Assembly: GCA_016929445.1 (NCBI GenBank)
Contig: JAFGIU010000092.1
Coordinates: 1-33,100 of the forward strand
Reading direction: 5' to 3'
Length of the DNA stretch: 33,100 nt
Origin: Candidatus Omnitrophota bacterium
Lineage (GTDB): Bacteria; Omnitrophota; Gorgyraeia; JAFGIU01
This document shows positions 2,863 to 28,661 of the stretch, piece after piece. The stretch's first letter is position 1, and every line of letters starts with the position of its first letter. Below the pieces are notes generated by a model. It saw only the letters and a list, made by a program, of their open reading frames with translations. It ran no database searches and was not told the origin of the DNA. The translations under genes were made by a program, and so were the position numbers.

Positions 2863-3108
2863 ATGCTGAAAGTAACTGTGGTGGATCTCCAGCGAACGCT
2901 TTTCCAGGGCCAGGCCACCCGGGTCATCTGTCCGGGGGAATCCGGGGTCTTTGAGATTGCCCGCTTCCACCGCCCCCTTCTCTCCCGCCTCCTCTCAGGT
3001 ACCCTCGTAGTGGACGAACAGCCCTTTGCGATCCGGCGCGGCATAGCCAAGGTGCTCAACGACGAGGTCACCTTGGTCGTGGAGACGGATTTTGAGCGAA
3101 AATTATAA
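2863..3108 (+). CDS. atpC: Short F1 ATP synthase epsilon-like subunit (N-terminal domain only)
   Basis: The protein has 81 residues. It matches the beta-sandwich domain of F1 epsilon: a start of the type LKVTVVDLQRTLFQG, then ATRVICPGESGVFEIARFHRPLL, a leucine/glycine segment (LLSGTLVVD) and IRRGIAKVLNDEVTLVVE. The usual C-terminal two-helix regulatory domain (about 45-50 residues) is absent, so self-inhibition by an extended epsilon arm should not be possible. GGAGG at 2846-2850 lies 12 bases upstream of the ATG. The gene is five bases after the anchored-protein gene and is separated from the other ATP synthase genes by a 323-base leader with its own promoter and riboswitch, so it is probably transcribed with the upstream genes. 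The family call is good; the partnership with the downstream subunits is inferred. Confidence 0.8.
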   Translation: MLKVTVVDLQRTLFQGQATRVICPGESGVFEIARFHRPLLSRLLSGTLVVDEQPFAIRRGIAKVLNDEVTLVVETDFERKL

Positions 3109-3198: not shown

Positions 3199-3227
3199 TT
3201 GAATTTTGAACCGCTGTGTGATATAGT
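3199..3227 (+). promoter_or_regulatory. Sigma70-like promoter for the riboswitch leader
   Basis: TTGAAT (3199-3204) and TATAGT (3222-3227) are separated by exactly 17 bases. Transcription would begin near 3233-3236, about 25-30 bases before the riboswitch aptamer, which is the expected arrangement. This is prediction from sequence only. Confidence 0.6.
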
Positions 3228-3260
3228 GAAGTGTAGTAATAATAATAGGTTGTGAGCAGG

Positions 3261-3369
3261 CCACCGAACGGGCAAACCTCGGGAAACCGGGGGGCGCAAA
3301 GTCACCGGCCCTCCCCAAGCGCAACATAGGTCGCGACCGGCTTGGCGGGCAGCGGGGCTATCGAAGTGG
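3261..3369 (+). ncRNA. GEMM-I (cyclic di-GMP class I) riboswitch aptamer
   Basis: The conserved core of the family is present in order. GGCAAACC (3271-3278) is followed by a stem CCTCGG/CCGGGG (3277-3282 with 3287-3292) closed by the GAAA tetraloop (3283-3286). Then come GCGCAAAG (3294-3301), a CCGG/CCGG stem (3305-3308 with 3337-3340), and GGCAGCGGGGCTATCGA (3348-3364). The closing P1 helix is CCAC-CGA (3261-3267) with TCG-AA-GTGG (3361-3369). The purine that sets ligand preference (Vc2 G20) aligns to G3272, favouring c-di-GMP over the A20 cGAMP-type variants, and the intercalating A47 aligns to A3299. The residue aligned to Vc2 C92 is U3361, an unusual substitution. The aptamer lies between a promoter and an intrinsic terminator upstream of atpE. 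Confidence 0.9.
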
Positions 3370-3388
3370 ACTCGCGGATTGACTGCGT

Positions 3389-3415
3389 AACCCTACCGTT
3401 TGGTAGGGTTTTTTT
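3389..3415 (+). terminator. Intrinsic terminator forming the riboswitch expression platform
   Basis: AACCCTACC (3389-3397) pairs perfectly with GGTAGGGTT (3402-3410) across a GTTT loop, and the T run extends to 3415. It begins 19 bases after the aptamer P1 helix and ends 16 bases before the atpE start codon, the layout of a transcription-attenuating riboswitch. I could not identify a convincing antiterminator, so whether ligand turns the operon on or off is not decided. Confidence 0.88.
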
Positions 3416-3431
3416 GTCGAAAGGCGATCGG

Positions 3432-3647
3432 ATGGGACGCAATATCGCGCTGATTCTGGCATTTGCACTCACGCTCTTGGCCCCGACCATGGTCATGGCC
3501 GCTGCGGCCTTTGCCAGCATCAATGCCCTGGGTCGAAACCCGTCCGCAGCCCCCAAGATTCTCACTGCAATGACCATCACCCTGGTCTTTGCCGAGGCCC
3601 TGGGGATTATTGCACTGCTGGTGATCTGGCAGTTATTTGCGGCTTAG
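3432..3647 (+). CDS. atpE: F0 ATP synthase subunit c (rotor ring proteolipid)
   Basis: The protein has 71 residues and is a two-helix hairpin. Helix 1 spans about residues 5-33 and is alanine-rich, where the family usually has a glycine-repeat motif. The polar loop contains the conserved R35-N36-P37. Helix 2 spans about 43-66 with the ion-binding carboxylate E55 in VFAEALGII. The residues after E55 are Ala-Leu, not the Ser-Thr of sodium-binding rings, and no helix-1 Gln is evident, so proton coupling is expected. The ATG at 3432 is the sensible start: the longer upstream frame runs back through the terminator and aptamer. The coding region lies directly downstream of the riboswitch terminator and so should be the first gene it controls. 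Confidence 0.93.
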   Translation: MGRNIALILAFALTLLAPTMVMAAAAFASINALGRNPSAAPKILTAMTITLVFAEALGIIALLVIWQLFAA

Positions 3648-3656: not shown

Positions 3657-4388
3657 ATGCCACTGGTCTTACTCCTCATCCTTCAGGCGCTGCTTTTCGG
3701 AGGCCTTGTCGTCGTACTGCGCAGCATTCTCCGGCGCAACGTGAGCAGCGCCACAGAACACCTCACCAACCTCAGCCAGGACTATCAGCGCAAAGAAGAA
3801 GAACTCGTTGCCCGGATTGAAGAGGCGGAAAGAAATTATGACGAGAGCATTAAGAGAGCCAGTGCAGAGGCCGCAGAGCTGAAGGAAAGGGCAGAGGACG
3901 ATGCACGGCAGACTGCGGAAAAACTTCTGCAGCAAACCCAAGACGAGGCTGAGGTCATTATGACAAAGGCCTTGGCCACAGCCGAGTCCCTAAAACAGGA
4001 GCTGGACAATGAGGCTGAGAACCGCGCCCTGGAGCGCGCCTGCGATTTGGTGGAGGCTGCCCTGCCCGAGGAGCTCCGCTTGCCGGCCCACCGTTCCTGG
4101 ACCGCAGAGCTGCTCAAGAACGGGTTTTCCCGGCTGGATGAGATGCGGTTGGAGGAAGGCGTGAATAAAGTGCTTGTCCGGACTGCCTTTGCTTTAGAAG
4201 ACAAAGAACTCAAGGCGCTGGAAGCGAAGTTGAAGGAGAAGATGGGCCCGGATGTACAGATCAAACAAGAGGTGGATTCCAGCGCAGTGGCCGGATTTTG
4301 CCTTCAAATCGGGAGTCTTGTCATGGACGGAACCTTGTCCCATCGCCTCAGAGAGACAGCGAGCCATGCAAAACGTGTCACAGAATAG
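3657..4388 (+). CDS. F-type ATP synthase b-delta fusion (peripheral stalk)
   Basis: The protein has 243 residues. An N-terminal membrane helix (residues 2-22) leads into a long, charged Ala/Glu/Lys coiled coil (about 30-125), which is the subunit b stalk. The C-terminal part carries the delta/OSCP C-terminal signature (VLVRTAFALEDKELKALEAK, then IKQEVDSSAVAGFCLQIG and VMDGTLSHRLRE). No separate delta gene is present, so one chain probably supplies both membrane anchor and F1 cap. The region between the coiled coil and the delta signature is too short for a full delta N-terminal helical bundle. AGGAGG (3646-3651) five bases before the ATG fixes the start. The gene follows atpE by nine bases and overlaps atpA by 23. 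b-delta fusions are known in mycobacteria; this one seems more compact. Confidence 0.87.
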   Translation: MPLVLLLILQALLFGGLVVVLRSILRRNVSSATEHLTNLSQDYQRKEEELVARIEEAERNYDESIKRASAEAAELKERAEDDARQTAEKLLQQTQDEAEVIMTKALATAESLKQELDNEAENRALERACDLVEAALPEELRLPAHRSWTAELLKNGFSRLDEMRLEEGVNKVLVRTAFALEDKELKALEAKLKEKMGPDVQIKQEVDSSAVAGFCLQIGSLVMDGTLSHRLRETASHAKRVTE

Positions 4389-5862
4389 ATTCCAAGTCAT
4401 AGAACCGTCCTTTGATGTGCGGGAGGTGGGGCATGTCAAATCCGTGCGCGACTGCATTGTGCGCGCGGTGGGTTTGCCGTCCTGTCTCAACGGACAATTG
4501 GTGGAGTTCTGTAACGGCACCCAAGGGATGGTCATGGGCTTTACCGAAGAGGATGTCCAGATCCTGGCCTTCGGCGTCAAGGGAGAGTTGAGGGCCGGTG
4601 ACGAGGTCTACAACAAGGGAGGCTCCTTCCGGGTGCCGGTTGGAGACAATTTCCTGGGCCGTGTGGTCAATGCGCTCGGGGAACCGGCTGACGGCAAGGG
4701 GCCGGTCGAATCCAAAGGGGACCTCCCGGTTTTCGGAGATGCTCCGGAAATCATGGAACGCGTGCCCGTGCACGAAACCATGGAAATGGGAACGCGCATG
4801 GTGGACGCGGCCATGGCCGTGGCACGCGGGCAGAGGCAGCTCCTGATCGGCGACAAAATGACAGGCAAGAGCACCATCGCCTTGGACGCGGTCCTGAACC
4901 AGAAGGGCCGCGAAACCATTTGTATTTATTGCGTCATCGGCAAGCCTTACTCCACACTGGTCAAAGTCCTTCAGCTCCTGCACGAAAATGAGGCCATGGA
5001 ATACAGCATTGTGGTCAGCGGGATTGCTTCCACTTCCGCCGGAGAGCAGTACTTGGCTCCCTATACAGGAGCAGCCTTGGGTGAGTACTTCATGCGCCGG
5101 GGCAAGCATGTCTTGATGGTGCTGGATGATCTGACCAAACACGCCTGGGTCTACCGCCAACTTTCCCTCCTCATGGAACGCGCCCCGGGCCGTGAGGCCT
5201 ATCCCGGAGACATCTTTTATATCCATTCACAGCTCGTCGAAAGAGCTGCCTGCTTGGCGCCGGAATTCGGCGGCGGCAGCATGACCTTCCTGCCTATTTG
5301 CGACATTTTGCAGGGAGATGTCACGGGGTTTATCCCCACCAATCTCATTTCCATGACAGACGGGCAAATTTACATGAGCACCCCGCTCTTCAACAAGGGC
5401 CAGAAGCCGGCCATCGATCTGGGCCTTTCAGTCTCCCGTATCGGTTCCAAGGGGCAATGGAAGTCCATGAAAGAGGTTTCCGGCCGGATCCGTTTGGAAC
5501 ACCTCCTGTATCAGGACCTCCTGAAGAGCACTCAGTTGCGGTCGAGCCTGTCCGCGGATGCAGCGGCGCGCATCAAGCGCGGTTCCGCCCTCTCTGAGAT
5601 TTTTGTCCAGGGTAAGGCTTCCCCCGTGCCCATTGAGGAGCAAGTGGTTTTGCTTCATGCCTGGAATCAGGGGGTGATGGATGAGCTTTCCGACGAAGAA
5701 AAAAAGCGCTTTAAAGACGATTTTCCGCTGCGTATGCGCGAATGGTACCCGCAAATGTTGCAGGAGATGCGGGATTCACAAAAGCTCACCGACCAGATGA
5801 AGGAGAAGATCGTCGAAGGCGCCAAGCGTTATGTACCCGGTTGGAGTCCAAAGGAGAAATAA
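4366..5862 (+). CDS. atpA: F1 ATP synthase subunit alpha
   Basis: The protein has 498 residues, near the family norm of about 500-510. The N-terminal beta-barrel domain is followed by the nucleotide-binding domain with a Walker A of GDKMTGKST (162-170), a variant of the usual GDRQTGKT(S/T). VLDDLTKHAWVYRQLSLL (252-269) and the PGREAYPGDIFYIHS block (274-288) are conserved. The arginine finger supplied to the beta catalytic site is R358 in LSVSRIGS. The C-terminal helical domain is complete. The ATG at 4366 is preferred over an upstream in-frame ATG at 4252 because the latter adds 38 residues unlike the family and overlaps the stalk gene much more. Alpha would form the hexamer with beta and bind the stalk's delta-like end. 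Confidence 0.95.
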   Translation: MQNVSQNRFQVIEPSFDVREVGHVKSVRDCIVRAVGLPSCLNGQLVEFCNGTQGMVMGFTEEDVQILAFGVKGELRAGDEVYNKGGSFRVPVGDNFLGRVVNALGEPADGKGPVESKGDLPVFGDAPEIMERVPVHETMEMGTRMVDAAMAVARGQRQLLIGDKMTGKSTIALDAVLNQKGRETICIYCVIGKPYSTLVKVLQLLHENEAMEYSIVVSGIASTSAGEQYLAPYTGAALGEYFMRRGKHVLMVLDDLTKHAWVYRQLSLLMERAPGREAYPGDIFYIHSQLVERAACLAPEFGGGSMTFLPICDILQGDVTGFIPTNLISMTDGQIYMSTPLFNKGQKPAIDLGLSVSRIGSKGQWKSMKEVSGRIRLEHLLYQDLLKSTQLRSSLSADAAARIKRGSALSEIFVQGKASPVPIEEQVVLLHAWNQGVMDELSDEEKKRFKDDFPLRMREWYPQMLQEMRDSQKLTDQMKEKIVEGAKRYVPGWSPKEK

Positions 5863-5868
5863 GCCGCT

Positions 5869-8141
<2,273 letters not shown>

Positions 8142-8149: not shown

Positions 8150-9706
8150 ATGTCGCAACGCAAGATTCTCAAACTATTGTGGATTGCTTTGATGGTCGGG
8201 GTTGTCTTTGCCCCGCCCGTTATTGCCGCAAAGCAAAATGATCCGGACGGAGCCCGCAGCCGGGTAACCGCTATTCTCATCACCGTGATCCTGGCACAAG
8301 CCACCGGCATTTTGCTCTACAGCTTTTCGCGGCGCAGCAGCAATGCCCGGTTGAATATGGGGCGGGGCGGAAGGGATCCTCTGAATTTGGGTGATTTGGA
8401 GGGGGATCACGTGGCCGGTGCTGTGCTCAAGGAATTGGGCAATATGGCCGGACCGGATAAGATGCGGCGCAAGACCGCCCAGGGCATTTCAAAGCTCGTC
8501 AAAGACAAGATCGAAGAGGAGGTCACTTCCGCCAAAATTGAGCTCTCCCAAAAATATGAGCGCATCCTCGAAGATAAAGACCGCCAGGAAAAAGTGGTCC
8601 GCAAGCAGTACGAAACTGTCGCCGTCGAAAAGAAGCAGACCGAGGCAGTGCTCCGCAGTGTGGCTGAGGGATTGGTTGTCGTCAACGCAAACGGCGAAGT
8701 GATGATGATGAATCCTGCTGCGGAGAAAATGCTGGAGGCCGATAAAAAGGGGAAACTCGGCAAAGGACTTCAGGAAGGGATCGGCGACGAAGGACTGATT
8801 TCTCTTGTCAAGCAATCAAAGGACGGCACCGGCAAAGATATTGAGGTCAGCGGCGAGGACAACACCCGCAAAGTACTGCGATCCAGTACTGCCGTGATTG
8901 AAGATGAAGACGGGAACACGGTGGGCATGGTTTCTGTGCTCAGTGACGTGACCAAGCAGCGCGAACTGGACCGCATGAAGAACGAGTTCATGAACAAGAT
9001 CACGCATGAGCTGAGGACTCCCATTGTCGCGATCCAACACTCCCTGAATGTCGTTCTCAATAAGGTGGCAGGACCCCTGAACGATACTCAGGAAAATTTC
9101 CTGGGTATTGCCAGGCGCAACCTGGAACGCCTTAATATTTTAATCAACGATATCCTGGACTTGGGCAAGCTCGAGGCAAAGAAGATGAAGCTGGAGCCTA
9201 AGCCCACGAAGATCGACACCGTGATCGACGGAGTGATTGAAACACTGAACGCCTGGGCGGAAGCCAAGGACATTAAACTGAAGAGAGACGTTGATTCCCA
9301 GATTCCCAGGATCCTCCTGGACCCGGACCGCACAACACAGGTGTTTTTCAACCTGATGGGCAATGCCATCAAGTTTACACCAAAGGACGGGAGTATCACC
9401 GTAAGCGCAAAGTTTCACGACGCATCCAAAAAGCTCGTGCAGTTGAGCGTTACAGATACGGGCATGGGAATCCCCAAAGCTGATCTCAAACGGGTTTTTG
9501 ACAAATTCCACCAGGTCGCGGGGCGCGCGCCTACGGACATGAGCGGCACGGGTCTGGGGCTGACCATTTCAAAGGAGATTGTGGAATTACACGGAGGGAA
9601 AATTTGGGTGGAGAGTGAGGAAGGCAAGGGGACCACCTTTGCGTTTACACTCCCGGTCGAGGGACCGGCGGGTCCGGAGCAGAAAGGCGAAAGCGATGGG
9701 GAATAA
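8150..9706 (+). CDS. Sensor histidine kinase with an ATP synthase c-subunit-like membrane segment
   Basis: The protein has 518 residues. A hydrophobic N-terminus (5-26) and a polar loop precede a membrane helix (about 40-58). Residues 31-55 align without gaps to c-subunit residues 36-60, with 10 of 25 identical, and Q50 falls at the ion-binding E55. A cytoplasmic coiled coil (105-165) and a PAS-type sensor (about 165-270) follow. The HisKA domain has H286 in ITHELRTP. The ATPase domain has an N box (N401-N405), G1 DTGMG (436-440), the F-box-like FDKFHQ, and G2 GTGLGL (466-471). All catalytic motifs look intact. It starts nine bases after atpD and overlaps the receiver gene by 11 bases, so it probably signals to that receiver. 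Membrane input from ATP synthase state or proton motive force is inference. Confidence 0.92.
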
Positions 9707-10064
9707 CACACATATTTTGTGGATTGATGATGAGGGTGATTTTCTGGCACCCATGGTCTTCTTGCTCGAAAGCAAAGGCTTCAAGGTAAGCACAGCTCCG
9801 ACAGGCGCCGCCGGCCTGGAAAGTCTTGCGGAACTGAAACCCGATATTGTTTTCTGCGATATCAGTCTCCCGGATATGAGCGGAGTGGATGTACTGAGCA
9901 AGATTCGCTCAGGTGTTCCCGGTCAGCCGGTCGTTATGGTTTCGGCCGCCTACCAGGACGGCATGCTCTATGAACAGGCCAAAGAGCTGGGGATTTCAGG
10001 CTTTTTCTGTAAGACTGGAAGCTTTGAAGAACTTGAGAAGATTCTCCTGACGATTCCCGGATAA
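9696..10064 (+). CDS. Stand-alone receiver (CheY-like response regulator)
   Basis: The protein has 122 residues, a single receiver domain with no DNA-binding or enzymatic output. D11 and D12 form the acidic pocket, D55 ([10 protein letters not shown]) is the phosphoacceptor, S83 is the switch Ser/Thr and K106 the conserved lysine. The ATG at 9696 is chosen because the receiver fold begins directly after it (HILWIDDE); the longer in-frame extension lies wholly inside the kinase gene. The 11-base overlap with the kinase gene marks a cognate pair. It must act by protein contact; the next gene encodes the secretion/pilus ATPase, an obvious candidate partner, but this is inference. Confidence 0.93.
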
Positions 10065-10075: not shown

Positions 10076-11767
10076 ATGAACGTGAGCACGCATATGGCTG
10101 CACAAAAACTCGGACAATTGCTGGTTGAAAAGGGGCTGATCACCGAAGGCCAGCTGCAAGAGGCCCTAAAAGAGCAGAAGAAGGACAAGGCTTTTTTGGG
10201 CGCCATTGTGGCAGCCAAAGGCTGGGCCTCTGAAGAAGACGTGGCCAAGGTTTTGGCAGAACAGCAGGATATGCCCTTTGCGCGTTTGGGTGAACTGCAG
10301 ATGGACCCGGCCCTGGTTTCCCACGTTCCCCTCAAGATAGCCATGCACTTTCAGGTTGTCCCTGTCCATTTGGAGGGAAACGTTCTCACCCTTGCGGTAG
10401 CAAACCCCCAGAGTGCGCGTCTTGCCGATGAACTGAGCCTGGCCCTGGAACAGAAGTATGTCGTCAAACTGCTCCTCACCACGGACCGGGATATCGGCAT
10501 GGCCCTCAAGAAGTTCTATGGCCTGGGCGCAGATACAGTGGGACAAATCCTGGCCGACAAAGAACCGGAGAAGGGACCCAAGAGAAAAACACCGGAGCAA
10601 GAAGGCGTTCAGGATATCCAGCAGTTGGCCGCCGATGCCTCGGTCATGAAACTGGTAAACCAGCTCTTGCTAGAAGGCTACCAACGCCGCGCCAGTGATA
10701 TTCATTTGGAACCGGCCAGAGGCAAAGTGCGTGTCCGGTATCGAGTGGACGGGCTGCTGCACGATATCGAGGTTCCCGAGGCCATACGCGAACTTTTTCC
10801 TGCCATCGTTTCCAGAGTCAAAGTGATTTCCAATTTGAATCTGGTTGAACGGCGCCTGCCCCAAGACGGCCGCGCTCAGGTCAAAGTGGGCGGTGAAAAG
10901 CTCGACCTGCGCATTTCCGTTCTCCCGACGCCCGTGGGCGAGAGCGTGGTCATCCGTATTCTCCCCAACAAAATGCTGCTTGATGTGAAGGGACTGGGAT
11001 TTGCGCGCGCGGACCAGCGGGCTCTGGAAAGCATGCTTTGCAAACCCCACGGGCTCATCTTTGTCACCGGCCCGACAGGCAGCGGTAAGACCACGACCCT
11101 GTATGCAGCCCTGGGGACTATCCGCCGGGACCAGCGAAAGATCATTACATTGGAAGACCCCGTGGAATACGAAATCGACGGAATCACGCAGGTGCAAGTC
11201 AACCCCCGAATCGGGTTCAGTTTTGCCGAGGGGCTGAGAAGCCTTCTGCGTCACGATCCGGACGTCATGATGGTCGGTGAGGTTCGAGACCTGGAGACTG
11301 CGGAGTTGGCGATCCAAGTTGCTCTTACCGGCCACCTGGTTTTGTCCACCCTGCACACCAACAATGCCTCCACCGGGGTTACCCGTCTTGTGGATATGGG
11401 GATTGAGCCCTTCCTGATCGTATCTTCTGTGGAGTGCTTTATCGCCCAGCGCCTGGTTCGCGTGCTCTGCGAAAACTGTAAACAGGAAACGCCTTCGGAA
11501 TGGAAGGACACCCCCAAAATCTACCGGGCCGTGGGTTGCGAGACGTGTCAGGGAACAGGTTTTTCAGGACGGACATCCATCTATGAAATGCTGCCCTTGA
11601 CAAGCGGGATTCGCGAACTGATCCTCAAGGGGGCCTCGGCCGATGCGATCCAGGAGAAAGCCATCGAACTCGGGATGAAAACCTTGAGAGAGGACGGCTG
11701 GGAAAAAGTAAAGGCAGGATTAACCACACCCGACGAAGTGCTGAGGGTGACCGAGATGGAGCAATAG
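10076..11767 (+). CDS. gspE: Type II secretion / pilus assembly ATPase with c-di-GMP-binding MshEN domain
   Basis: The protein has 563 residues and powers pseudopilus or pilus assembly at the inner membrane. The N-terminal MshEN domain has two 24-residue motifs, 11-34 (KLGQLLVEKG...Q34) and 40-63 (FLGAIVAAKG...Q63), with the family's 5-residue spacer. This is the tandem arrangement described for the c-di-GMP receptor MshE; the leading Arg of motif I is Lys here. The ATPase core has Walker A GPTGSGKT (332-339), the ITLEDPVEY Asp box (357-365), MMVGEVRD as Walker B (398-405) and a His box LSTLHTNNA (423-431). Four cysteines (465, 468, 488, 491) form the zinc-binding module typical of GspE/PilB. 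An in-frame ATG at residue 7 is an alternative start. It follows the receiver gene by 11 bases. Confidence 0.95.
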   Translation: MNVSTHMAAQKLGQLLVEKGLITEGQLQEALKEQKKDKAFLGAIVAAKGWASEEDVAKVLAEQQDMPFARLGELQMDPALVSHVPLKIAMHFQVVPVHLEGNVLTLAVANPQSARLADELSLALEQKYVVKLLLTTDRDIGMALKKFYGLGADTVGQILADKEPEKGPKRKTPEQEGVQDIQQLAADASVMKLVNQLLLEGYQRRASDIHLEPARGKVRVRYRVDGLLHDIEVPEAIRELFPAIVSRVKVISNLNLVERRLPQDGRAQVKVGGEKLDLRISVLPTPVGESVVIRILPNKMLLDVKGLGFARADQRALESMLCKPHGLIFVTGPTGSGKTTTLYAALGTIRRDQRKIITLEDPVEYEIDGITQVQVNPRIGFSFAEGLRSLLRHDPDVMMVGEVRDLETAELAIQVALTGHLVLSTLHTNNASTGVTRLVDMGIEPFLIVSSVECFIAQRLVRVLCENCKQETPSEWKDTPKIYRAVGCETCQGTGFSGRTSIYEMLPLTSGIRELILKGASADAIQEKAIELGMKTLREDGWEKVKAGLTTPDEVLRVTEMEQ

Positions 11768-11774: not shown

Positions 11775-12995
11775 ATGCCTCTGTATCATTATGTTGCAAA
11801 AAAAGGACCCGGCGAAATTATCGAAGGCGATCTCGAGAGAGACAGCCGGAGCGCGGCACTGCAGCAAATCACGGACATGGGCTACATACCCGTCAAAGTT
11901 GAGGAGATCCAAAGGCACGAGAGCGAGGAGAAAGGGGTGGATGTTGCCCATCTCAAGCGCATCCCCAGGCGGCAAATCAATATCTTTACCCGCCAGTTTG
12001 CCAGCCTGACACGCGCTCAGATTCCGCTGCTGCGCTCCCTGGGTATACTCAGTGATCAAACTTCCAACCCCTCGCTCAAGGCTGTTATCGCGGCGGTCGC
12101 CAAAGAGGTTTCCCAGGGCGCAACGCTTTCAGGCGCCATGGGAAATTGGCCCCAGGTTTTCTCCCCCTTCTATGTGGGAATCACTCACGCCGGGGAAGTT
12201 GCCGGCACATTGCACGTTGTCCTGGAACGTCTGTCGGCCAAGGCCGAGGCCGAGGACAGAATGCTGGCCAAGCTAAGAAGTGCTTTGGCCTACCCGATCT
12301 TCGTCGGGATTGTCGGCGTGCTCACGATTGTGGCCCTGATGACCTTTGTCATGCCGCGCTTGTTGAAGCTGTTCGGCAGTATGGGAGGGGACTTGCCCCT
12401 GCCCACAGTGATGGTGGTCACTGTAAGCCGTTGGATGACCGGCTGGCAGTTCTGGGTGATCCTGTTGCTGGGCTTTTCCGTGCTGAGCTTTGTCTGGAAA
12501 CTCCTGGGGAGCCGGAAAAAACGGTTCGCGGACCGCATTGTGATGCAACTCCCTATTGTTAAAGGTCTTGTGCAAAAACTGGATTTGGCTCGATTCTCGA
12601 GATCCTTTGGATTGCTGCTTGAAAACGGGGTCCCCATTCTCCAGGCCGCGGAAGTCTCCATCCCTGTGATTCAAAATTCGTTCATCCGGGAGGATCTTGA
12701 GAGTCTTCCTGCCGGCCTGCGCGAAGGAGAAAAACTGGCCACCTGTTTAATGAGAGTTCCCGCTGTTTCGGATCCCTTCTTTATCAACACGGTGGCAGTC
12801 GGTGAAGAAGGAGGCCGTGTGGGGGAGGCCTTGCTGGAAATCGCCAATTTCTGTGATGAGGAGTCGGACCGCCAACTTCAGTTAGTGTCCGCATTGATGG
12901 AGCCGGTCATGATATTGGGAGTCGGGGCAGTCGTCGGTTTTATCGTTATGGCAGTGCTGCTTCCCGTGTTTCAGTTCAGTACCATGCTGCGTTAG
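11775..12995 (+). CDS. gspF: Type II secretion / pilus inner-membrane platform protein
   Basis: The protein has 406 residues, the usual length of GspF/PilC. It starts MPLYHYVAKKGPGEIIEGDL, as in the family (short cytoplasmic N-terminus with the Y-x-Y-x-A pattern). It has two homologous GspF domains: one at about 70-190 (FTRQFASLTRAQIPLLRSL) and one at about 270-395 (FSRSFGLLLENGVPILQA). Membrane helices lie near 170-195, 218-240 and 375-400. It couples the GspE ATPase to pseudopilin extraction from the inner membrane. It lies seven bases after gspE and nine before gspG. Confidence 0.94.
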   Translation: MPLYHYVAKKGPGEIIEGDLERDSRSAALQQITDMGYIPVKVEEIQRHESEEKGVDVAHLKRIPRRQINIFTRQFASLTRAQIPLLRSLGILSDQTSNPSLKAVIAAVAKEVSQGATLSGAMGNWPQVFSPFYVGITHAGEVAGTLHVVLERLSAKAEAEDRMLAKLRSALAYPIFVGIVGVLTIVALMTFVMPRLLKLFGSMGGDLPLPTVMVVTVSRWMTGWQFWVILLLGFSVLSFVWKLLGSRKKRFADRIVMQLPIVKGLVQKLDLARFSRSFGLLLENGVPILQAAEVSIPVIQNSFIREDLESLPAGLREGEKLATCLMRVPAVSDPFFINTVAVGEEGGRVGEALLEIANFCDEESDRQLQLVSALMEPVMILGVGAVVGFIVMAVLLPVFQFSTMLR

Positions 12996-13004: not shown

Positions 13005-13481
13005 ATGAAGGAAACAAGACACCGTAGATTGCGAACTTTGGAAGCGTCTTCAATGGGATTCACCCTGGTTGAGCTCATGCTGGTCATCGTGATTATCGGA
13101 GCCCTTGCCGCTATGGTCGTGCCCAGGCTGGCAGGCCGCTCTGAGGATGCCCGGATTGCGGCGGCGGAGGCGGACATCAGTGGGAATATTTCGCTGGCAT
13201 TAAAGCTGTATGAAGTCGATAACGGACGCTATCCCACCACGGAACAAGGACTCGCTGCGCTGATCGAAAAACCGTCTTCGCCGCCCATACCCAAGAATTG
13301 GCGGGGTCCCTATCTGGAACAAGAGGCCATCGATTCCTGGGGAGAGGAATATGTGTACCGGCTAAGCCGGGAGCACCCCCCCTATGATTATGTGCTCCTC
13401 TCGCTAGGACCGGATGCAAAGCTGGATACAGAGGATGATATCGCGAATTGGGCAATCAAGAAAAAGTCCGGAGGCCGCTGA
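13005..13481 (+). CDS. gspG: Major pseudopilin (type II secretion GspG-like)
   Basis: The protein has 158 residues. The prepilin peptidase site is MG|FTLVELMLVIVII, with Glu at mature position 5 and a leader of 18 residues, somewhat long. The body has the GspG pattern: ALKLYEVDNGRYPTTEQGL, then NWRGPYLEQEAIDSWGEEYVY, and a C-terminal LGPDAKLDTEDDIANW matching the calcium-binding end of GspG (LGADGxxGGxxxDADI). The strong AGGAGG (12994-12999) five bases before the ATG at 13005 supports that start over the internal ATG at 13053. The gene directly follows gspF. A calcium-dependent GspG fold favours type II secretion over type IV pilus for this cluster. Confidence 0.93.
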   Translation: MKETRHRRLRTLEASSMGFTLVELMLVIVIIGALAAMVVPRLAGRSEDARIAAAEADISGNISLALKLYEVDNGRYPTTEQGLAALIEKPSSPPIPKNWRGPYLEQEAIDSWGEEYVYRLSREHPPYDYVLLSLGPDAKLDTEDDIANWAIKKKSGGR

Positions 13482-13484: not shown

Positions 13485-13877
13485 ATGGCAGCTAAAAAGG
13501 GACTGACGCTGATCGAGGTCTTGGTCAGCGTCGTCATACTGGCCACCGGCGCCGTAGCCGTGACCCAGGCCTTGATGCGCGTTTCGCATGCCATGAGTGT
13601 GGCGGAATTCCGGACTCTTTCCACACAATTTGCGGCATCCAAAATGGCTGAAGTGGAGATGCTCGTGGCTCAAGGAGAGGAAGTCCGTCCCGGACAAGGC
13701 CGAACAGGGTTTGGTCTGAGATCTTTTGAATGGACTCTGGACGTGAGCGAAACGCATCTTCTGGATTCAAACAGATTGGGGCTAATCACCCTGGATTTGG
13801 TGTGGAAACGGGGAAGCGCGAGTTACCGCCAGAAATATCAAACTCTGTTGCCGGTATTTCAAAAGGAAAATGGATGA
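13485..13877 (+). CDS. gspI: Minor pseudopilin, GspI-like
   Basis: The protein has 130 residues. A very short basic leader (MAAKKG) precedes LTLIEVLVSVVILATGAVAV, the class III signal with cleavage after Gly6 and Glu5 kept. Length, position between gspG and gspJ, and the LTLIEVLV(S/A)xxIL pattern fit GspI, a component of the pseudopilus tip complex with J and K. GGAGG (13470-13474) is 10 bases before the ATG. No separate gspH is seen; this could also be described as a generic GspH/PilV-type minor pseudopilin. Confidence 0.82.
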   Translation: MAAKKGLTLIEVLVSVVILATGAVAVTQALMRVSHAMSVAEFRTLSTQFAASKMAEVEMLVAQGEEVRPGQGRTGFGLRSFEWTLDVSETHLLDSNRLGLITLDLVWKRGSASYRQKYQTLLPVFQKENG

Positions 13878-14464
13878 AGGCAAAGGGATTTACCCTTATT
13901 GAACTCTTGGTGGCGATGTCCCTGATCGCATTGGTGAGCGGGGCCGCCGTGGCTGTCCTAGCCGGCGGATTAAGAGTTTGGGAACGATACCAGGTAGCCG
14001 GCGTCCAGACCGATATGATGCGCCTGGGCGTCGAACAAATTCGGAAGGACTTGGTGAATGCCCGGCGTTTTGATCTAATTCACTTTGAAGGCAGTTCCTC
14101 GCAATTTCAAGTGCCGGCCACCATCCAGGTAGACTATGAGGAAGGCGGAAGTCTGCAGGAGCTCGGCCAAGTCAGTTATTTTGCGGATAGGCGCTACGGT
14201 TGTTTGGGACGCTCACAGGCTCCTTTCAGTGAACTCAAGCGCCACCGGGCCAAAAGTGACTACACGGTGGTGATAGACGACCTTCAAAATATCAAGTTTT
14301 CCTATTTTGGATCGCAAAAGGAGGAGAGTGAAGCGAAGTGGACCAGCCGTTGGAAATCGCATCTCCTGCCTCAAGCTGTAAAAATCGAGCTGCAGTACGG
14401 AGACGGAACAACAGAGGGGACCTACACCAGTGCAGTCACATTTTCTCTGCCGGGAATCCAATAG
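13874..14464 (+). CDS. gspJ: Minor pseudopilin, GspJ-like
   Basis: The protein has 196 residues. The leader MKAKG precedes FTLIELLVAMSLIALVSG with Glu5 present. The ATG at 13874 overlaps the gspI stop as ATGA, so the longer frame beginning at 13730 is rejected. The body has the beta-rich layout of GspJ (WERYQ, then LRKDL-like IRKDLVNARRF) and ends in a segment LPQAVKIELQYGDG, matching the GspJ pattern for comparing slope and strand near the C-terminus. It would form the tip complex with I and K. Confidence 0.85.
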   Translation: MKAKGFTLIELLVAMSLIALVSGAAVAVLAGGLRVWERYQVAGVQTDMMRLGVEQIRKDLVNARRFDLIHFEGSSSQFQVPATIQVDYEEGGSLQELGQVSYFADRRYGCLGRSQAPFSELKRHRAKSDYTVVIDDLQNIKFSYFGSQKEESEAKWTSRWKSHLLPQAVKIELQYGDGTTEGTYTSAVTFSLPGIQ

Positions 14465-15434
14465 AGGAAGCATCCTGGTGGCAATCGTATGGATCATTGC
14501 CCTGTTGGGGATCTTTGTCGGCTCCCTGGGCGTACGCGCGCAGATGGCCCTTTCTCTGGGAGACCGCTATGAGCAAGACTTGCAGGCCCGCTATCTTGCC
14601 AAAGCAGGGGTCCAATACGGGATGGAGGCCTTGGCACAAGATGTGACCCTGGCTTATGATGGGTCCAACGAGTCTTGGTACAACAATCCGGGCTTGTTTC
14701 TTGAACGGCGTTTGGACACGGGTACTTTTAAAGTGGAGACTTCTGCCGGCCCCAACAGCCCCAAAATACCGGGCTTGCTGGATGAGGACCGCAAGATCAA
14801 CATCAATACAGCTCCCGAGGATGTGCTGCAAAACCTCTTTGTCTTTGCAGCAGACCTCAGCATTCAGGACGCAACGACCGTTGCCCAGTCCATTCTGGAT
14901 TGGCGGGACGAGGATTCAGAAGAGCGCGATTACGGCGCCGAAGGCAGCTTTTACCGCAACAGCCGCCAGGCCCACGAATGCAAAGACGGGCCCCTGGAAA
15001 ATGTTGAAGAGCTCCTGCTGGTCCGCGGCGTCGAAGCAGCCGCCTATCGCGCGGTTCTGCCCTATGTTACGGTATATGGGTCGGGTCACGTCAACTTCAA
15101 CACAGCCGGCACCGAAGTGCTGACTTCTTTGGGCTTCTCCGAAGCCGGGTTGGCAACCCTCAATGGATTCCGGGTCGGAGAAGACGGAATTCCCGGAAAC
15201 GCAGACGACCGCTTGTTCGTGTCTGCCGGCAGCATTGTTTCCGATTTGGAGGCCTTAATTCCGGTTGACGATCTCCAGATTCTCAGCAAGTTGGTGGAAG
15301 ATAAATTTATCGGAGTGAACTCCAGAGCATTCCGCATGCAAGTGGAAGCATGGACCCCGGACGAGCGGGGAAGAGCCCGAATCGAATGTGTGTTTGACCG
15401 GGGCGGCAAAATTTACTTTTGGTCGGAGCATTAG
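14430..15434 (+). CDS. gspK: Large minor pseudopilin, GspK-like
   Basis: The protein has 334 residues from a GTG at 14430. The N-terminus NRGSILVAIVWIIALLGIFVG resembles GspK (RGxALLxVLWxLALL), which lacks Glu5. Family marks include RAQMALSLGD, a linker AKAGVQYGMEAL, LLDEDRKININTAPEDVL, which opens the helix-rich insert with helix-hairpin-helix character, and LDWRDEDSEERDYGAE. GspK caps the pseudopilus tip. The start is not firm: GTG 14430 overlaps gspJ by 35 bases, and no ATG occurs before the membrane segment; GAGGGGA (14413-14419) could serve as ribosome binding site. The frame reads cleanly to TAG at 15434. Confidence 0.85.
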   Translation: MQSHFLCRESNRGSILVAIVWIIALLGIFVGSLGVRAQMALSLGDRYEQDLQARYLAKAGVQYGMEALAQDVTLAYDGSNESWYNNPGLFLERRLDTGTFKVETSAGPNSPKIPGLLDEDRKININTAPEDVLQNLFVFAADLSIQDATTVAQSILDWRDEDSEERDYGAEGSFYRNSRQAHECKDGPLENVEELLLVRGVEAAAYRAVLPYVTVYGSGHVNFNTAGTEVLTSLGFSEAGLATLNGFRVGEDGIPGNADDRLFVSAGSIVSDLEALIPVDDLQILSKLVEDKFIGVNSRAFRMQVEAWTPDERGRARIECVFDRGGKIYFWSEH

Positions 15435-15459
15435 GGCGCGTCAATAAGGGAGGACGCAG

Positions 15460-16929
15460 ATGGGGGCAAAAGCGCGAAGCGGCAGGCATCCAAGCACGGT
15501 GTTCTATTTGGACCGCAAGTGGGTCAAACTCGTCCAGGTTGAGCGCCGCGGCAAGACCTGCCGGATTTCCAAGCTGATTTCTCAGTCAGTCGAAGGATTG
15601 ACCGAAGATGAACTCATCTCCCGCCTCCAGACCACGTGCGAGAGCGAAAAGATTCGTGTGAACCGGGTTCTTATCGCAGGCCCCGCCCATTTCAGCACAG
15701 TCCGGGTATTCACCCTTCCTTCCACTGATCCGCATGAAATCAAGGATATGGTGGAGCTCCAGGTCGAAAAGCATACCCCTTATGCTAAAGAGGAAATCCT
15801 CGTCGACTACCAAGTCATTGCCACGGATTCTTCGGGCTATTCACAGGTTTTTCTCGTAATCGCCCACAGAAGTATCGTGGACCGCGTTGTACGGATTGCG
15901 GAACGTATGCGCTGGTCCGTGGACCGCGTGGGCTTTGATATGGAAGGGCTGGTGAACTGGTTTCATCATAGCTGCAGAGGCGCCGCCGGCTTCGAGGATC
16001 CCGAACGCGGGACCTTGTTGGTCGATATCAATACGGACACAACCTGCGTGGTTATCTTGAATCAGGGCCGCGCTTTCTTCCACAGAAGCATTGCCGGAGG
16101 ATTGGATTCGCTTGTGCAAGATATCGAATCCGGCAAGGCGAATCTGGTCCGCGAACTCAAGCAATCCATGGAAATTTTTGAAGAAGAGGACCTGGGCTTT
16201 GTCGTGGCAGACGCGGTGTTGACCGGCCAAGCCGAATATTTCCCCGGCCTTAACGGGGAAGTCGCGGGCGCGCTGGGCATCAAGGCCTATTGTGTCTCCA
16301 CTTTTCAGGCCGTGGACATCCACAAAGAGAGCGCGGCCGGTGCGGCGCTGGAGAGTATGGGCTCCTTTGCAGGCCTCATCGGGCTGGGCTTGGCCCCGTC
16401 CGAAATCGACCTGACTCCATCGGCCGTGAAGCTCAGGCAATCCTTTGAAGCCAGGTCCCGGGCCTTGACTTCCGTAGGCGTCAAGATCCTGGTGCTTCTG
16501 CTGCTCCTTTCCAGTCTTGCAATCACCCGCATGAGCCGTGAGGAAAAATACGCCGATGCTCTGATTCAAAAGCACGGTGAAATCAGTGAGCCCGCCCAGA
16601 GGCTGGAAACATACCTGGCGCAGCTGGAAATCGTCAAAGACCATCTGGAGCAACGAGGGCAAATCCTGCAGGTGATTCAGGAACTTCAGCAGCTAACCCC
16701 CGCGGCGGTGCGCTGGAAGGAACTATCATTTACGAAGGGCAAAGAAGTAAGCTTCAAGGCCAGCTCCACTGAAATGTCCGTGGTTTTTGATTTCGTATCC
16801 CAACTCGAAAAATCCCCGCTCTTCTCCGCTGTGGAGGCCAAACGCGTATCACGGCAGAGAGTGGAGAGGGAGGATTTGACGGCCTTTGAGGTGGTATGTG
16901 AACTCTCCAACGCGGAGGCGGGGGGATGA
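15460..16929 (+). CDS. gspL: GspL-like / PilM-PilN-like assembly protein
   Basis: The protein has 489 residues. The N-terminal two thirds is an actin-like fold of the PilM/GspL cytoplasmic type (VFYLDRKWVKLVQV near the start, VELQVEKHTPYAKEEILVDY at about 96-115, then TLLVDINTDTTCVVILNQG, a phosphate-loop-like strand). One membrane helix lies near residues 343-360 (VKILVLLLLLSSLAIT). A coiled coil and a ferredoxin-like periplasmic domain follow, as in PilN or GspL. It therefore joins PilM- and PilN-like parts in one chain, recruiting GspE to the platform. GGGAGG (15448-15453) lies six bases before the ATG. It overlaps the next gene by four bases. Confidence 0.85.
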   Translation: MGAKARSGRHPSTVFYLDRKWVKLVQVERRGKTCRISKLISQSVEGLTEDELISRLQTTCESEKIRVNRVLIAGPAHFSTVRVFTLPSTDPHEIKDMVELQVEKHTPYAKEEILVDYQVIATDSSGYSQVFLVIAHRSIVDRVVRIAERMRWSVDRVGFDMEGLVNWFHHSCRGAAGFEDPERGTLLVDINTDTTCVVILNQGRAFFHRSIAGGLDSLVQDIESGKANLVRELKQSMEIFEEEDLGFVVADAVLTGQAEYFPGLNGEVAGALGIKAYCVSTFQAVDIHKESAAGAALESMGSFAGLIGLGLAPSEIDLTPSAVKLRQSFEARSRALTSVGVKILVLLLLLSSLAITRMSREEKYADALIQKHGEISEPAQRLETYLAQLEIVKDHLEQRGQILQVIQELQQLTPAAVRWKELSFTKGKEVSFKASSTEMSVVFDFVSQLEKSPLFSAVEAKRVSRQRVEREDLTAFEVVCELSNAEAGG

Positions 16930-17489
16930 ATCTCTCAAAGTTGTCCAGCCGGGAGCGTTGGGTACTGGGAATCAGCGCCCTTGTTGTTTTTGTGTGGTTC
17001 TCAGACCAAGTCGTGCTGAGATACTGGGGCAGCTACAGCCAAAGTTTGGGCAGCCAGGTCCAAGATCTGCAAGTGGAACTGGAGCGGAACGAAAAACTCC
17101 TGGTGCGGAGGCCTTTTATCGAGGCCGACGTGAAAGCCTACGAGGGGTTTATCCGCAACCGGGACAGCGGAGAAATGGAGCTGGCGCGCCTGATCGACAC
17201 CGTAGAGAAATACGGAGCCCAATCCAATATTTCCTTCAAAGAGATCAAGCCCCTGGATCCTGTTGAGGAGAATGATTATTACCAGTCCGGCATTGAGGTG
17301 CGTTATGAGGGCGCTCTGACCGACTGGATAAAGTTTTTGCACCTCGTACTGACCTCGGAGGTCTTGCTGGAGGTCCAAAAAGCCGAAATCGCTCCGATCG
17401 ATGACACGCGGGATAAGGTCGAAGGGTATGTGCGTATCACCAGTCTGGCCCTGGGTCCTTCAGGAGCCGGGGAGGGCGTTGATGAGTAG
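16926..17489 (+). CDS. GspM / PilO-like inner-membrane protein
   Basis: The protein has 187 residues. A short cytoplasmic N-terminus with SSRERWVLGISALVVFVWF is the GspM-type start (L(S/T)xRER-hydrophobic helix). A periplasmic coiled coil (about 38-75) and a ferredoxin-like domain follow. GspM/PilO dimerise with GspL/PilN to align the assembly platform. It begins inside the stop of the preceding gene (ATGA) and overlaps the following gene by eight bases. GspM and PilO are hard to tell apart from sequence alone. Confidence 0.8.
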   Translation: MNLSKLSSRERWVLGISALVVFVWFSDQVVLRYWGSYSQSLGSQVQDLQVELERNEKLLVRRPFIEADVKAYEGFIRNRDSGEMELARLIDTVEKYGAQSNISFKEIKPLDPVEENDYYQSGIEVRYEGALTDWIKFLHLVLTSEVLLEVQKAEIAPIDDTRDKVEGYVRITSLALGPSGAGEGVDE

Positions 17490-19659: not shown

Positions 19660-20523
19660 CTAGGCCTTCGCCGCCAATTCATCCACCTTCCCGAAAGCCC
19701 TCTCCGCCAAAAGCTCGCGCTCCGAATCCGAAATACGGCAACGCGTATGCAGAGTCTGGGAGGGATCCCGGTGAACCTTCGTGAGCACAAGCTGATAAAT
19801 ATCCCGCATCAAGCGGGCCCCCATCCGCGCATCCTCGGAAAACCAGGGGAGCAGGCGATCCGCGCCGCGGAAATAGTACCAGGCCCTGCGGCACTGGAAG
19901 TCCATCATCTCCAAAAACTCCGGTGAGACTTCTCTTGCAATCAAGGATTCCTCGGAACATTGAAAATACTGCAGGTCTTCGGCAGGCAGATAAATCCGGT
20001 TTCGATCCAGATCATCCCCCACATCCCGGAGAATATTCGTCAATTGGAGCGCTATGGCAAAATGCCTGCCCCAATACTGCACTGAGAGATTTTCCGCGTG
20101 CCCGAAAACCACCAGGCAGATCCGGGCAATAGGCGTGGCCACCATATCACAGTAATCGAGGACTTCTTCAAAGGAGGCGTAGCGGCACTTGACCAGGTCC
20201 TGGCGGCAGCCCTGAATCATGGCCTCAAAAACCCTCTTGGGCACGGGATATGTCCGGAGCACATCGCTCAGGGCCTCTGTAATCAGGTGGCTGGGGCGCC
20301 CCTCGTAACAGAGGTCCAGTTCCTGTTTCCATTGGGCAAGGAGCTTCTCCGGCTCCTTGACACTCTCCTCATCCGAGATATCGTCGGCAAAGCGGCAAAA
20401 AGCATAAGCCGCGTAAATCGCTCTCTTTTTGGCCGCGGGCAGATGCTTGAAACCCAGAGAAAAGTTGGTTCCTCTGCGGTGCGTCATTTCTTCGCAATAA
20501 TCATAGGCTTGTTTCAGATTCAT
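19660..20523 (-). CDS. Squalene/phytoene synthase family enzyme (HpnC/HpnD-like)
   Basis: The protein has 287 residues. It catalyses head-to-head condensation of two prenyl diphosphates in this family. Both aspartate-rich motifs are present: FCRFADDISDE (about 43-53) and LTNILRDVGDDLDRNRIYLP (about 161-180), the latter close to the bacterial HpnD-type pattern. The first visible part (YCEEMTHRRGTNFSLGFKHLP) is also typical. Which product forms (squalene, presqualene or a carotenoid precursor) cannot be read from sequence. It is immediately downstream of a flavoprotein gene on the same strand with one base between them, so the two probably form one isoprenoid lipid operon. Confidence 0.92.
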   Translation of the reverse strand: MNLKQAYDYCEEMTHRRGTNFSLGFKHLPAAKKRAIYAAYAFCRFADDISDEESVKEPEKLLAQWKQELDLCYEGRPSHLITEALSDVLRTYPVPKRVFEAMIQGCRQDLVKCRYASFEEVLDYCDMVATPIARICLVVFGHAENLSVQYWGRHFAIALQLTNILRDVGDDLDRNRIYLPAEDLQYFQCSEESLIAREVSPEFLEMMDFQCRRAWYYFRGADRLLPWFSEDARMGARLMRDIYQLVLTKVHRDPSQTLHTRCRISDSERELLAERAFGKVDELAAKA

Positions 20524-20524
20524 C

Positions 20525-21610
20525 CTAAACTCCAGGCAACGGCGCGAGCCGCTTCCGCCAGCGGCAACGGATAAGCGGAATCATGAAAGTCTTCCACCAA
20601 CTGGGCTGGTACCACCATCTCAAATAATTTCTCGGATTGCCGTTAAGCCGCGCCAAGCGGATCAGAGCCTCAGTCGCTGTTTGCCCCCCGGTTTCGTAGA
20701 GGTGCCTGAGCCAAAGACTCGAAAGCATCTGAGGCCGCAGCTGTTTCTGCCACAAGCAGTCGTAATCAAGATTCTCCGTTAGAGCGCGGGCGGCCATCAC
20801 ACCGCTCAGCAGAGCGGAACGGATTCCGAATCCCAGCAGATAGTCCTGGAAACCCGCCGCTTCGCCCACAACCAGGGTCCGGCCCAAACGCAGAGAACCG
20901 GGCAGGCAAAAACTGGCCACGGCGCAGCGCCGCCGGGCTTCCCCGGTCTCAAAGGCCTCAATAGACTGGAAACGGTCCATCACAGCCTTCCAGACACGGT
21001 CAGCCTCTTTGAAGCGGCGGACAATCGCCATGCCGAGTGTGGCCCAGCCTTTGGACACAAATAAATACGCGTAACCGGCGGGTGTGAGCCCCTGGTCCAA
21101 CAATACGTGCATGCGGTCGGAAAGTCCTGTGGAAAAACTGGTTTCAAAACCCAGGCCATCGGCCCTCGAAGGCCCTGTGGCCCAGACCGAAACACCGCTC
21201 CGGTCCCTGATCCGGCTTCCGAAACGGACATCCACCCCGGCCTCCCGGGCCTGCCGCAGCAGGCTCCCGTCGAGCATCCGTTCCCCGGGACCGCGGCGAA
21301 GCAAATAGCCGATGGGTTCCGCGCAGCGCAGGGGAGCGGGCCTGGATTTGGAGCCAAAAAGCGTCATCTCATGCACAGCCTGAGTCGTACAGGCCAAATC
21401 AATGCCCGACCCGGAAAGCAGACGGAGCACATCCTCCGTTTGCGTAAAGTTTTGGAGCATCTGGAAGCCCCCTTGCCAGCGCGGACCCACGCGCGCCTGG
21501 GCCTCATGCACAACGACTTTTCGCCCCTTCCGGGCCAGACACAGGGCCGCGCTGAGGCCTGAAGGCCCCGCCCCGGCAATGTGGATTTCGGGTTCGGACA
21601 TGAGGCTCAT
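20525..21610 (-). CDS. FAD-dependent oxidoreductase, geranylgeranyl reductase-like
   Basis: From the ATG at 21610 the protein has about 361 residues. The dinucleotide-binding motif is IHIAGAGPSGLSAAL near the N-terminus, with the adenosine-ribose glutamate in VVVHEAQ. TPAGYAYLFVSKGWATLGM corresponds to the GYxWxFP...(N/T)xG motif of geranylgeranyl reductases, and GEAAGFQDYLLGFGIRSAL to the FAD-binding GDAAGxxxPxxGxGI motif. A longer in-frame extension to 21799 is rejected because it overlaps the divergent gene and does not resemble the family. An ATG three codons later (21601) is the alternative. Paired with the prenyl synthase, it may saturate double bonds of an isoprenoid lipid; substrate unknown. 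Confidence 0.85.
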   Translation of the reverse strand: MSLMSEPEIHIAGAGPSGLSAALCLARKGRKVVVHEAQARVGPRWQGGFQMLQNFTQTEDVLRLLSGSGIDLACTTQAVHEMTLFGSKSRPAPLRCAEPIGYLLRRGPGERMLDGSLLRQAREAGVDVRFGSRIRDRSGVSVWATGPSRADGLGFETSFSTGLSDRMHVLLDQGLTPAGYAYLFVSKGWATLGMAIVRRFKEADRVWKAVMDRFQSIEAFETGEARRRCAVASFCLPGSLRLGRTLVVGEAAGFQDYLLGFGIRSALLSGVMAARALTENLDYDCLWQKQLRPQMLSSLWLRHLYETGGQTATEALIRLARLNGNPRNYLRWWYQPSWWKTFMIPLIRCRWRKRLAPLPGV

Positions 21611-21612
21611 TC

Positions 21613-21624
21613 TACCATATGGTA
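21613..21624. promoter_or_regulatory. 12-base palindrome between divergent genes
   Basis: TACCATATGGTA is a perfect dyad three bases upstream of the flavoprotein start on the minus strand and about 50 bases upstream of the sugar transferase start on the plus strand. It could be a shared operator, but I see no matched second site and no clear -35/-10 pair. Confidence 0.3.
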
Positions 21625-21673
21625 TACTCTGGGTATTGGGACTGTAACTTCTTTGTTCGACGGAGGATAGATC

Positions 21674-23083
21674 GTGTTCAAACAACATGCCGCCCTGATG
21701 CAGCGTATTCTGGTTTACACAGATTTGCTCCTGCTCATTGCCGTATTCCTCGGGGTCCACTTTGTGGGCTACCGGATTCATCCGTTTTTCCCTTTGCACA
21801 ATTATTTACCCCTCTTGCCTGTCTACTTAGGGTCCTGGCTGGGATTCCTTTACTTTTTCGGGGCCTACCAGTCCAAAAGAGTCAGCGGCAAGGGAGAGAT
21901 CTTCCTCATTATTCTCAAGGCCGGCCTCATCGGAGTGATCGCCTTCACCAGTTTTATTTACATCTTCAGACTGGGTATATTCACAAGCCGCGTCTTCACG
22001 GCGGCCATCTTCAGCTTTGGGGTCGTCTTTTTGGCTCTCGAAAAAATCCTCCTGTCCCAAATCTTCAAGGAGCTTCGCAGACGAGGATTCAACTGGAAGC
22101 AAATCCTGATTGTCGGGTCCGGAGAACGAGCCCAAAAGTTTCTGAACCTCATCGAACAGCATGCGGAATGGGGACTGCGCGTGCTGGGTATTGTGGACAG
22201 GGACCCTGCTTTAACCGGCCAGATGTTGGGTGAGTACCAGGTGGTGGGCTCCTTTGAGGACCTCCCGGATATCCTGCACGACGGCGTGATTGATGAGGTG
22301 GCCTTCATTGTGCCCCGGGCATGGCTTTCCGACATTGAAGCCTTGCTCCTGGCCTGCGAATCGGAGGGTGTGACCGTGCACCTGGCTGTGGATTATTTTG
22401 AATTGCACTTGACCCAAGCTAAATCCACGGACTTTGGGGGCTTCCCGCTGCTCACTTTCGGAAGCGTCCCGGACCGCATAGAGCATCTCTTCATGAAGCG
22501 TATCTTCGATATCGGAGCTTCAACCGTGGCTCTCGCGCTTCTTTCCCCGCTGTTCCTGGGAATTGCGTTATGCATCAAGTATTGTTCAAAAGGCCCTATT
22601 CTGTTCAGACAGACGCGCTGCGGCCTGGCCGGCAGGCGTTTCACCATGTACAAATTCCGCACCATGGTGGAGGACGCGGAATCCCGGCTCGAAGAACTCA
22701 TGGAACAGAACGAGATGGAGGGCCCGGTATTTAAAATGGAAAAGGACCCGCGCCTCACGCCCATCGGGTCTTTTCTGCGCAAGACAAGTCTGGATGAACT
22801 TCCCCAGCTAATTAATGTCTTGCGCGGAGATATGAGTCTGGTGGGACCGCGCCCGCCTCTGCCCTCAGAAGTCGACAATTACGAAAGCTGGCAACGGCGC
22901 CGTTTGAGTATCCGCCCGGGTATCACCTGCATTTGGCAGGCAAACGGCCGGAACCGGATTCAGGATTTCGGCGAGTGGGTCAAGCTGGACCTGGAATACA
23001 TCGACACATGGTCTTTGTGGCTGGACTTCAAAATACTTCTGCGCACGATTCCCAGCGTGCTCTTCGGCGACGGAGCCAAGTGA
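21674..23083 (+). CDS. Polyprenyl-phosphate sugar phosphotransferase (WcaJ/WbaP-like), initiates polysaccharide repeat unit
   Basis: The protein has 469 residues from a GTG at 21674 with GGAGG at 21662-21666. Four or five membrane helices occupy residues 10-125. A Rossmann-type CoA-binding-like domain follows (QILIVGSGERAQKFL, about 143-157). The C-terminal bacterial sugar transferase domain begins with a membrane-inserted helix (about 273-300). It contains KRIFDIGAS, GPILFRQTRCGLAGRRFTMYKFRTM (about 307-331), TSLDELPQLINVLRGDMSLVGPRPP (about 374-398) and RPGITCIWQANGRN. These are the catalytic Asp-Glu and phosphate-binding motifs of the family. It transfers a sugar-1-phosphate to undecaprenyl phosphate at the cytosolic face. 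It opens the exopolysaccharide locus, divergent from the isoprenoid genes. Confidence 0.94.
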   Translation: MFKQHAALMQRILVYTDLLLLIAVFLGVHFVGYRIHPFFPLHNYLPLLPVYLGSWLGFLYFFGAYQSKRVSGKGEIFLIILKAGLIGVIAFTSFIYIFRLGIFTSRVFTAAIFSFGVVFLALEKILLSQIFKELRRRGFNWKQILIVGSGERAQKFLNLIEQHAEWGLRVLGIVDRDPALTGQMLGEYQVVGSFEDLPDILHDGVIDEVAFIVPRAWLSDIEALLLACESEGVTVHLAVDYFELHLTQAKSTDFGGFPLLTFGSVPDRIEHLFMKRIFDIGASTVALALLSPLFLGIALCIKYCSKGPILFRQTRCGLAGRRFTMYKFRTMVEDAESRLEELMEQNEMEGPVFKMEKDPRLTPIGSFLRKTSLDELPQLINVLRGDMSLVGPRPPLPSEVDNYESWQRRRLSIRPGITCIWQANGRNRIQDFGEWVKLDLEYIDTWSLWLDFKILLRTIPSVLFGDGAK

Positions 23084-23091
23084 ATGAGGAC

Positions 23092-23157
23092 GCGGGTTGC
23101 GGAGCGCAGCGAACACAACCCGCTGTCCGAATTCATCCTGAGGCGTAGCCGAAGGAT
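23092..23157. repeat. Two adjacent small palindromic repeats after the sugar transferase gene
   Basis: GCGGGTTG (23092-23099) pairs with CAACCCGC (23116-23123) around GGAGCGCAGCGAACA. Just downstream, ATCCT-GA-GGC-GTA-GCC-GA-AGGAT (23135-23157) is a second interrupted palindrome. Both look like dispersed REP-type repeats; copy number elsewhere cannot be seen from this window. Confidence 0.5.
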
Positions 23158-24863: not shown

Positions 24864-24873
24864 GGAAAGGACC

Positions 24874-28658: not shown

Positions 28659-28661
28659 TCT

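Follow-up and report, generated by a model that had tools for sequence, protein, structure and literature searches.

The 33,100-base window analyzed here, a whole contig (C92) of a 2.43-Mb metagenome-type Omnitrophota assembly (G000) to whose positions all coordinates refer, carries a genuine c-di-GMP-I (GEMM-I) riboswitch that is placed to control a set of F-type-like ATPase genes. Judging from the sequences compared, these genes encode a second, divergent and non-respiratory F-type-like ATPase linked to type II secretion/type IV pilus genes, and the explanation that accounts best for the data, and is probably correct, is that the riboswitch acts by transcription attenuation on a unit inside the “symbiotic” F-type-like ATPase/type IV pilus operon of Omnitrophota, a unit that it would turn off upon ligand binding. 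What is observed of this explanation comprises the aptamer, the promoter-like and terminator sequences, the identity of the operon, and the recurrence of such switches at the operon heads of seven relatives.

A cmscan search of the whole window returned a match to RF01051 at 3261-3365 on the + strand, which spans the full model (1-87) at 54.3 bits (E-value of 3.9e-8; the Rfam gathering cut-off for this family is 35 bits) and is the sole match above gathering in the window, so that the GEMM-I aptamer of the original prediction passed the covariance-model check proposed for it. Alignment to Vc2, from which the residue numbering is taken, places G20 at 3271, G21 at 3272, A47 at 3298, position 92 at 3361 (a U), and C93 at 3362; the P1/P2/P3 junction, the G21-C46 pair, A47, and the GNRA loop are all kept, as is the c-di-GMP-selective G at position 20 (G3271). 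The element shares with GEMM-I (RF01051) its three helices, the conserved GGCAAACC, the GAAA loop, GCAAAG, an expression platform beside the gene start (terminator at 3389-3410, gene at 3432), and pilus-type target genes, whereas it departs from the usual representatives in having U92, a J1/2 that is apparently one base shorter, and no P3 tetraloop-receptor sequence (CCUAA...UAUG, found in other copies), as well as in being located inside an operon, ahead of an F-type-like ATPase. The earlier description of the aptamer as “well-formed” needs correcting at position 92 and for the missing P3 receptor.

Position 92 is a C in seven of the seven other GEMM-I aptamers of the genome and in 43 of the 44 sampled within the class (the window aptamer is one of these 44 and the only one with U92); C92 is a feature of c-di-GMP-selective aptamers that the window copy lacks. 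In Vc2, position 92 is the pairing partner of a guanine in the ligand, mutations at positions 20/92 weaken c-di-GMP binding, and the affinity of the G20A/C92U double mutant for c-di-GMP is ~4,900 nM vs. 0.011 nM for the wild type (PMC9049102); no figures on the affinity of C92U alone were found in the papers examined. A U at the ligand-pairing position makes the ligand and the affinity of the window aptamer uncertain, and, given the affinity drop in the double mutant, the switch may be weaker or changed in specificity, or U3361 may be an assembly error. The cyclic dinucleotide sensed, the identity of which we infer, is most likely c-di-GMP.

That U92 would instead pair with an adenine, turning the element into a sensor of cGAMP or of another A-containing dinucleotide, appears unlikely, even if c-di-GMP has one of its guanines read by C92, c-di-AMP is a ligand of the engineered G20A/C92U double mutant (PMC7288161), and structures of C92U Vc2 exist (PMC10671752). 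Among the GGDEF proteins of the genome, the signature is readable in four, which all carry the c-di-GMP-type Asp and none the Hypr Ser/Thr (three further GGDEF hits are not readable by the signature pattern), a SMODS-type synthase was not found in the genome search, and cGAMP was rejected as the ligand on these two counts; U92 is, besides, known from one sequence of one MAG. Natural cGAMP-type switches show the change at position 20 and not at 92, yet G20 is kept in the window aptamer. A decayed aptamer, in which U92, the shorter J1/2, and the lost P3 receptor would have abolished sensing and left a terminator that merely lowers expression, could be envisaged from the score (54.3 bits, below that of several other copies of the genome, which reach up to 90.4 bits), the confinement of U92 to this aptamer among those sampled, and the lack of conservation of its internal position, but is unlikely as well, since P1, P2, P3, G20, A47, and the G21-C46 pair are intact, the promoter, the terminator, and a 9-bp antiterminator are found in the right geometry, and another GEMM-I of the same genome (C127b) has the same short J1/2 with C92. 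A second GEMM-I of the genome that has the short J1/2 (CCGAAC[G/U]GG) of the window copy together with C92, at L228:16507-16615, precedes an FHA-GAF histidine kinase gene. Elsewhere in the phylum, an A at position 20 (AAUAGCAAAC) was seen in three GEMM-I aptamers (L067:1501-1588, L076:1501-1585, and L081:1501-1592) and, as this is the change tied to cGAMP-type switches, suggests cGAMP sensing in Omnitrophota.

The promoter and the terminator that had been predicted around the aptamer are both there: a sigma-70-like promoter sequence (TTGAAT-17-TATAGT with an extended TG), recognized by consensus match, lies at 3199-3227 (+) within the operon, 3' of the epsilon gene (two promoter-like sites found vs. 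0.4 expected in shuffles), and an intrinsic terminator at 3389-3415 (+) combines a 9-bp stem (3389-3397/3402-3410; AACCCTACC-GTTT-GGTAGGGTT at 3389-3410; 0.4 expected) with a T tract to 3415, which ends 16 bases ahead of the c-subunit ATG at 3432. Transcription would start from this promoter, and the 5' strand of the aptamer (P1/J1-2, including G20; 3263-3271, +) is predicted to act as an antiterminator by forming 9 bp with 3396-3404, i.e., with the inner arm and loop of the terminator. Without the ligand, this pairing would allow read-through, whereas the ligand-bound aptamer would lock 3263-3271 in P1/J1-2, leaving the terminator at 3389-3410 free to form and to stop the transcription of the c-b/delta-alpha-gamma-beta-kinase-regulator-GspEFG unit. 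The use of the aptamer 5' strand by the modeled antiterminator is what suggests an OFF-switch. The helix is the MFE structure of nascent transcripts ending at 3404-3406, and 9 of 300 shuffles were as good; in the full-length transcript, the margin of the terminator fold over the antiterminator is only 2.1 kcal/mol, and the terminator fold prevails whether or not ligand-type aptamer constraints are rewarded, so the OFF direction, which we infer, rests on a kinetic argument. Across the class, the antiterminator test gave a permutation p of 0.044 and the 3'-side control pairing a p of 0.026, which makes the antiterminator evidence suggestive only; the four best antiterminator self-matches among the 38 switches are all from this genome. 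ON wiring, in which the bound aptamer would extend P1 (3248-3251/3389-3392 and 3256-3259/3383-3386) and take the terminator foot, and in which the A47 strand would, in the ligand-free state, pair with 3380-3387 and let the terminator form, is possible in terms of the folding models but is less favored than OFF: the helices that it needs do exist, and the MFE (-66.6) is the ligand-free fold that combines the A47-strand helix with the terminator, but the bound aptamer with the terminator (-64.3) is far better than the bound aptamer with the extended P1 (-55.4), and, as an antiterminator, the 9-bp 3263-3271/3396-3404 helix is stronger.

The genes around the switch are all encoded on the + strand. 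Upstream of it are the 3' portion of a giant surface-type gene that the contig start truncates (25-1974; ORFs at the same place in relatives encode about 2,000-9,000 aa), a conserved operon protein with a signal peptide-like start, a C-terminal TM segment, and no Pfam family (1943-2857), and an epsilon-like subunit of 81 aa consisting of the N-terminal domain only (2863-3108; PF02823). The first gene 3' of the switch encodes a c-like subunit of 71 aa with the carboxylate present (3432-3647) and is followed by those of a fused b/delta-like subunit (3657-4388), a divergent alpha subunit (4369-5862), the gamma subunit (5869-6723), a divergent beta subunit (6720-8141), a PAS sensor histidine kinase (8150-9706), a response-regulator receiver domain protein (9678-10064), a GspE/PilB-type ATPase with an N-terminal MshEN region (10076-11767), a GspF/PilC-type platform protein (11775-12995), and a GspG-type pseudopilin (13005-13481), and then by further pseudopilin, GspJ/GspK-, PilM/PilN-, and PilO-like genes (13485-17489). 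The histidine kinase and the response regulator between beta and GspE were seen only in the window; the N-terminal hairpin of the kinase faintly resembles a c subunit (with Q for E), a likeness that is not claimed here, the profile match being marginal (6.3 bits). By sequence alone, the region 3' of the pilus genes (19660-33100) contains squalene/phytoene synthase-, FAD oxidoreductase-, and exopolysaccharide/glycosyltransferase cluster-like genes.

In the original prediction, the regulated genes were taken for the core F-type ATP synthase, and this is the part that did not hold, as opposed to the placement of a GEMM-I with a terminator to control ATPase genes, which did. That the window encodes the core synthase, with the switch coupling a second messenger to energy conversion, is a highly improbable reading: the genes are indeed homologous to those of alpha, beta, gamma, epsilon, b/delta, and c, with P-loops that look intact, but the genome has its canonical alpha, beta, and a genes on another contig (C1), whose canonical operon includes the only subunit a of the genome, and subunit a is absent from both the window operon and the cluster loci searched. 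The window beta falls into a clade apart from canonical ATP synthase beta (support of 1.0), and 155 of 384 same-class genomes contain such a divergent beta (a genome search with the single window beta gave no matches, whereas an alignment query did recover relatives). The c-subunit carboxylate is an E in 24 of the 42 family members and is replaced by Q, V, A, or F in the remaining 18, a loss that argues against ion translocation. In about 50 clusters, the gene order is giant gene, small TM protein, epsilon-N, c, b/delta, alpha, gamma, beta, MshEN protein or GspE, GspF, and GspG, tying the ATPase to pilus/secretion genes. As the ATPase is not the core synthase, second-messenger control of energy conversion does not follow.

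The system itself is not new: a “symbiotic F-type ATPase/T4aP locus” of Omnitrophota, whose alpha is reported to group with Mycoplasma type-2/3 ATPases, was published in 2023 and described as non-respiratory (PMC10066038). The window operon agrees with it in the phylum, in the presence of a divergent F-type ATPase beside type IV pilus genes, in its non-respiratory nature, and in the giant ORFs of the same genomes, while the present analysis adds that subunit a is absent and that the c carboxylate is often lost, and neither a riboswitch nor c-di-GMP control is named in that publication. Mycoplasma F1-like ATPases (type 2/3, including the M. mobile gliding motor) are likewise an extra alpha/beta pair outside ATP synthesis with a proposed role as a motor; the NCBIfam models of these ATPases match here well below their cut-offs. 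Unlike them, the Omnitrophota version retains genes for c, b/delta, and epsilon-like subunits and adjoins a pilus/secretion system.

Eight GEMM-I aptamers of the genome score above the cut-off, each followed by a hairpin and a T tract (a terminator of this type follows 38 of the 44 GEMM-I sampled in the class), and the genes that follow those outside the window operon encode histidine kinases, response regulators, a giant FecR/Ig-domain protein, and other surface-type products. Conservation of the leader at orthologous loci, a further check proposed at the outset, was not borne out: no GEMM-I was found in the epsilon-c gap of ~45 other ATPase cores, including close-relative clusters 64-73% identical in beta, which makes the internal position special to the window. 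However, a GEMM-I with a terminator is located on the same strand upstream of the giant gene, ~0.3-3 kb away from it, in seven relatives (G238, G358, G135, G070, G346, G048, and G057), i.e., at 7 of roughly 13-16 visible operon heads (those with the giant-gene start assembled) or, as G048 and G057 were chosen because the switch had already been seen there, at an unbiased 5 of roughly 11-14, whereas, with 3.8 switches per genome, ~0.05 would be expected by chance in 13 heads. With head switches in seven relatives far exceeding chance, c-di-GMP control of the system probably recurs in the phylum; the operon head of the window itself is not visible, the contig starting inside the giant gene. The recurrence appears to be new within the literature searched, in which no paper was found to feature Omnitrophota and riboswitches together. 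It is doubtful that such recurrent regulation of the giant-protein/F-type-like ATPase/pilus operon by GEMM-I-type switches and a natural C92-to-U variant of changed affinity or ligand in the window copy both hold true; if they do, the latter would be a natural counterpart of the engineered specificity mutant. Five relatives have, in the interval from the head riboswitch to the giant gene, an ORF encoding an IS200-like Y1 transposase domain (L225:3683-4651 and L276:13975-14982, both with a Pfam match; similar N-termini in G135, G070, and G346), which may belong to the operon as a fixed component.

The GspE of the operon itself might be another point of contact with c-di-GMP, as its MshEN domain (PF05157) is preceded by a pair of 24-residue motifs set 5 residues apart, a layout known from c-di-GMP binding (PMC5013675). 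Compared to MshE/PilB-type traffic ATPases (PMC5013675), both motifs and the exact spacer are present, but the first Arg is replaced by Lys in one motif and by Phe in the other, rendering c-di-GMP binding by this GspE uncertain. The genome does encode diguanylate cyclases with an intact GGDEF signature. A pilus-linked motor falls within the range of functions established as GEMM-I targets, and, as the operon encodes a pilus-linked ATPase and not an energy-making synthase, what the window switch governs is probably attachment and not energy, with the ATPase presumably working together with the pilus in attachment or motility. The tempting claim of a second messenger switching the core ATP synthase is thereby removed, and what takes its place is a signal, most likely c-di-GMP, for a poorly understood motor-plus-pilus system that has been proposed to serve attachment/predation in a large uncultured phylum, together with a testable RNA, in which U92 provides a natural case for examining ligand choice by GEMM-I aptamers.
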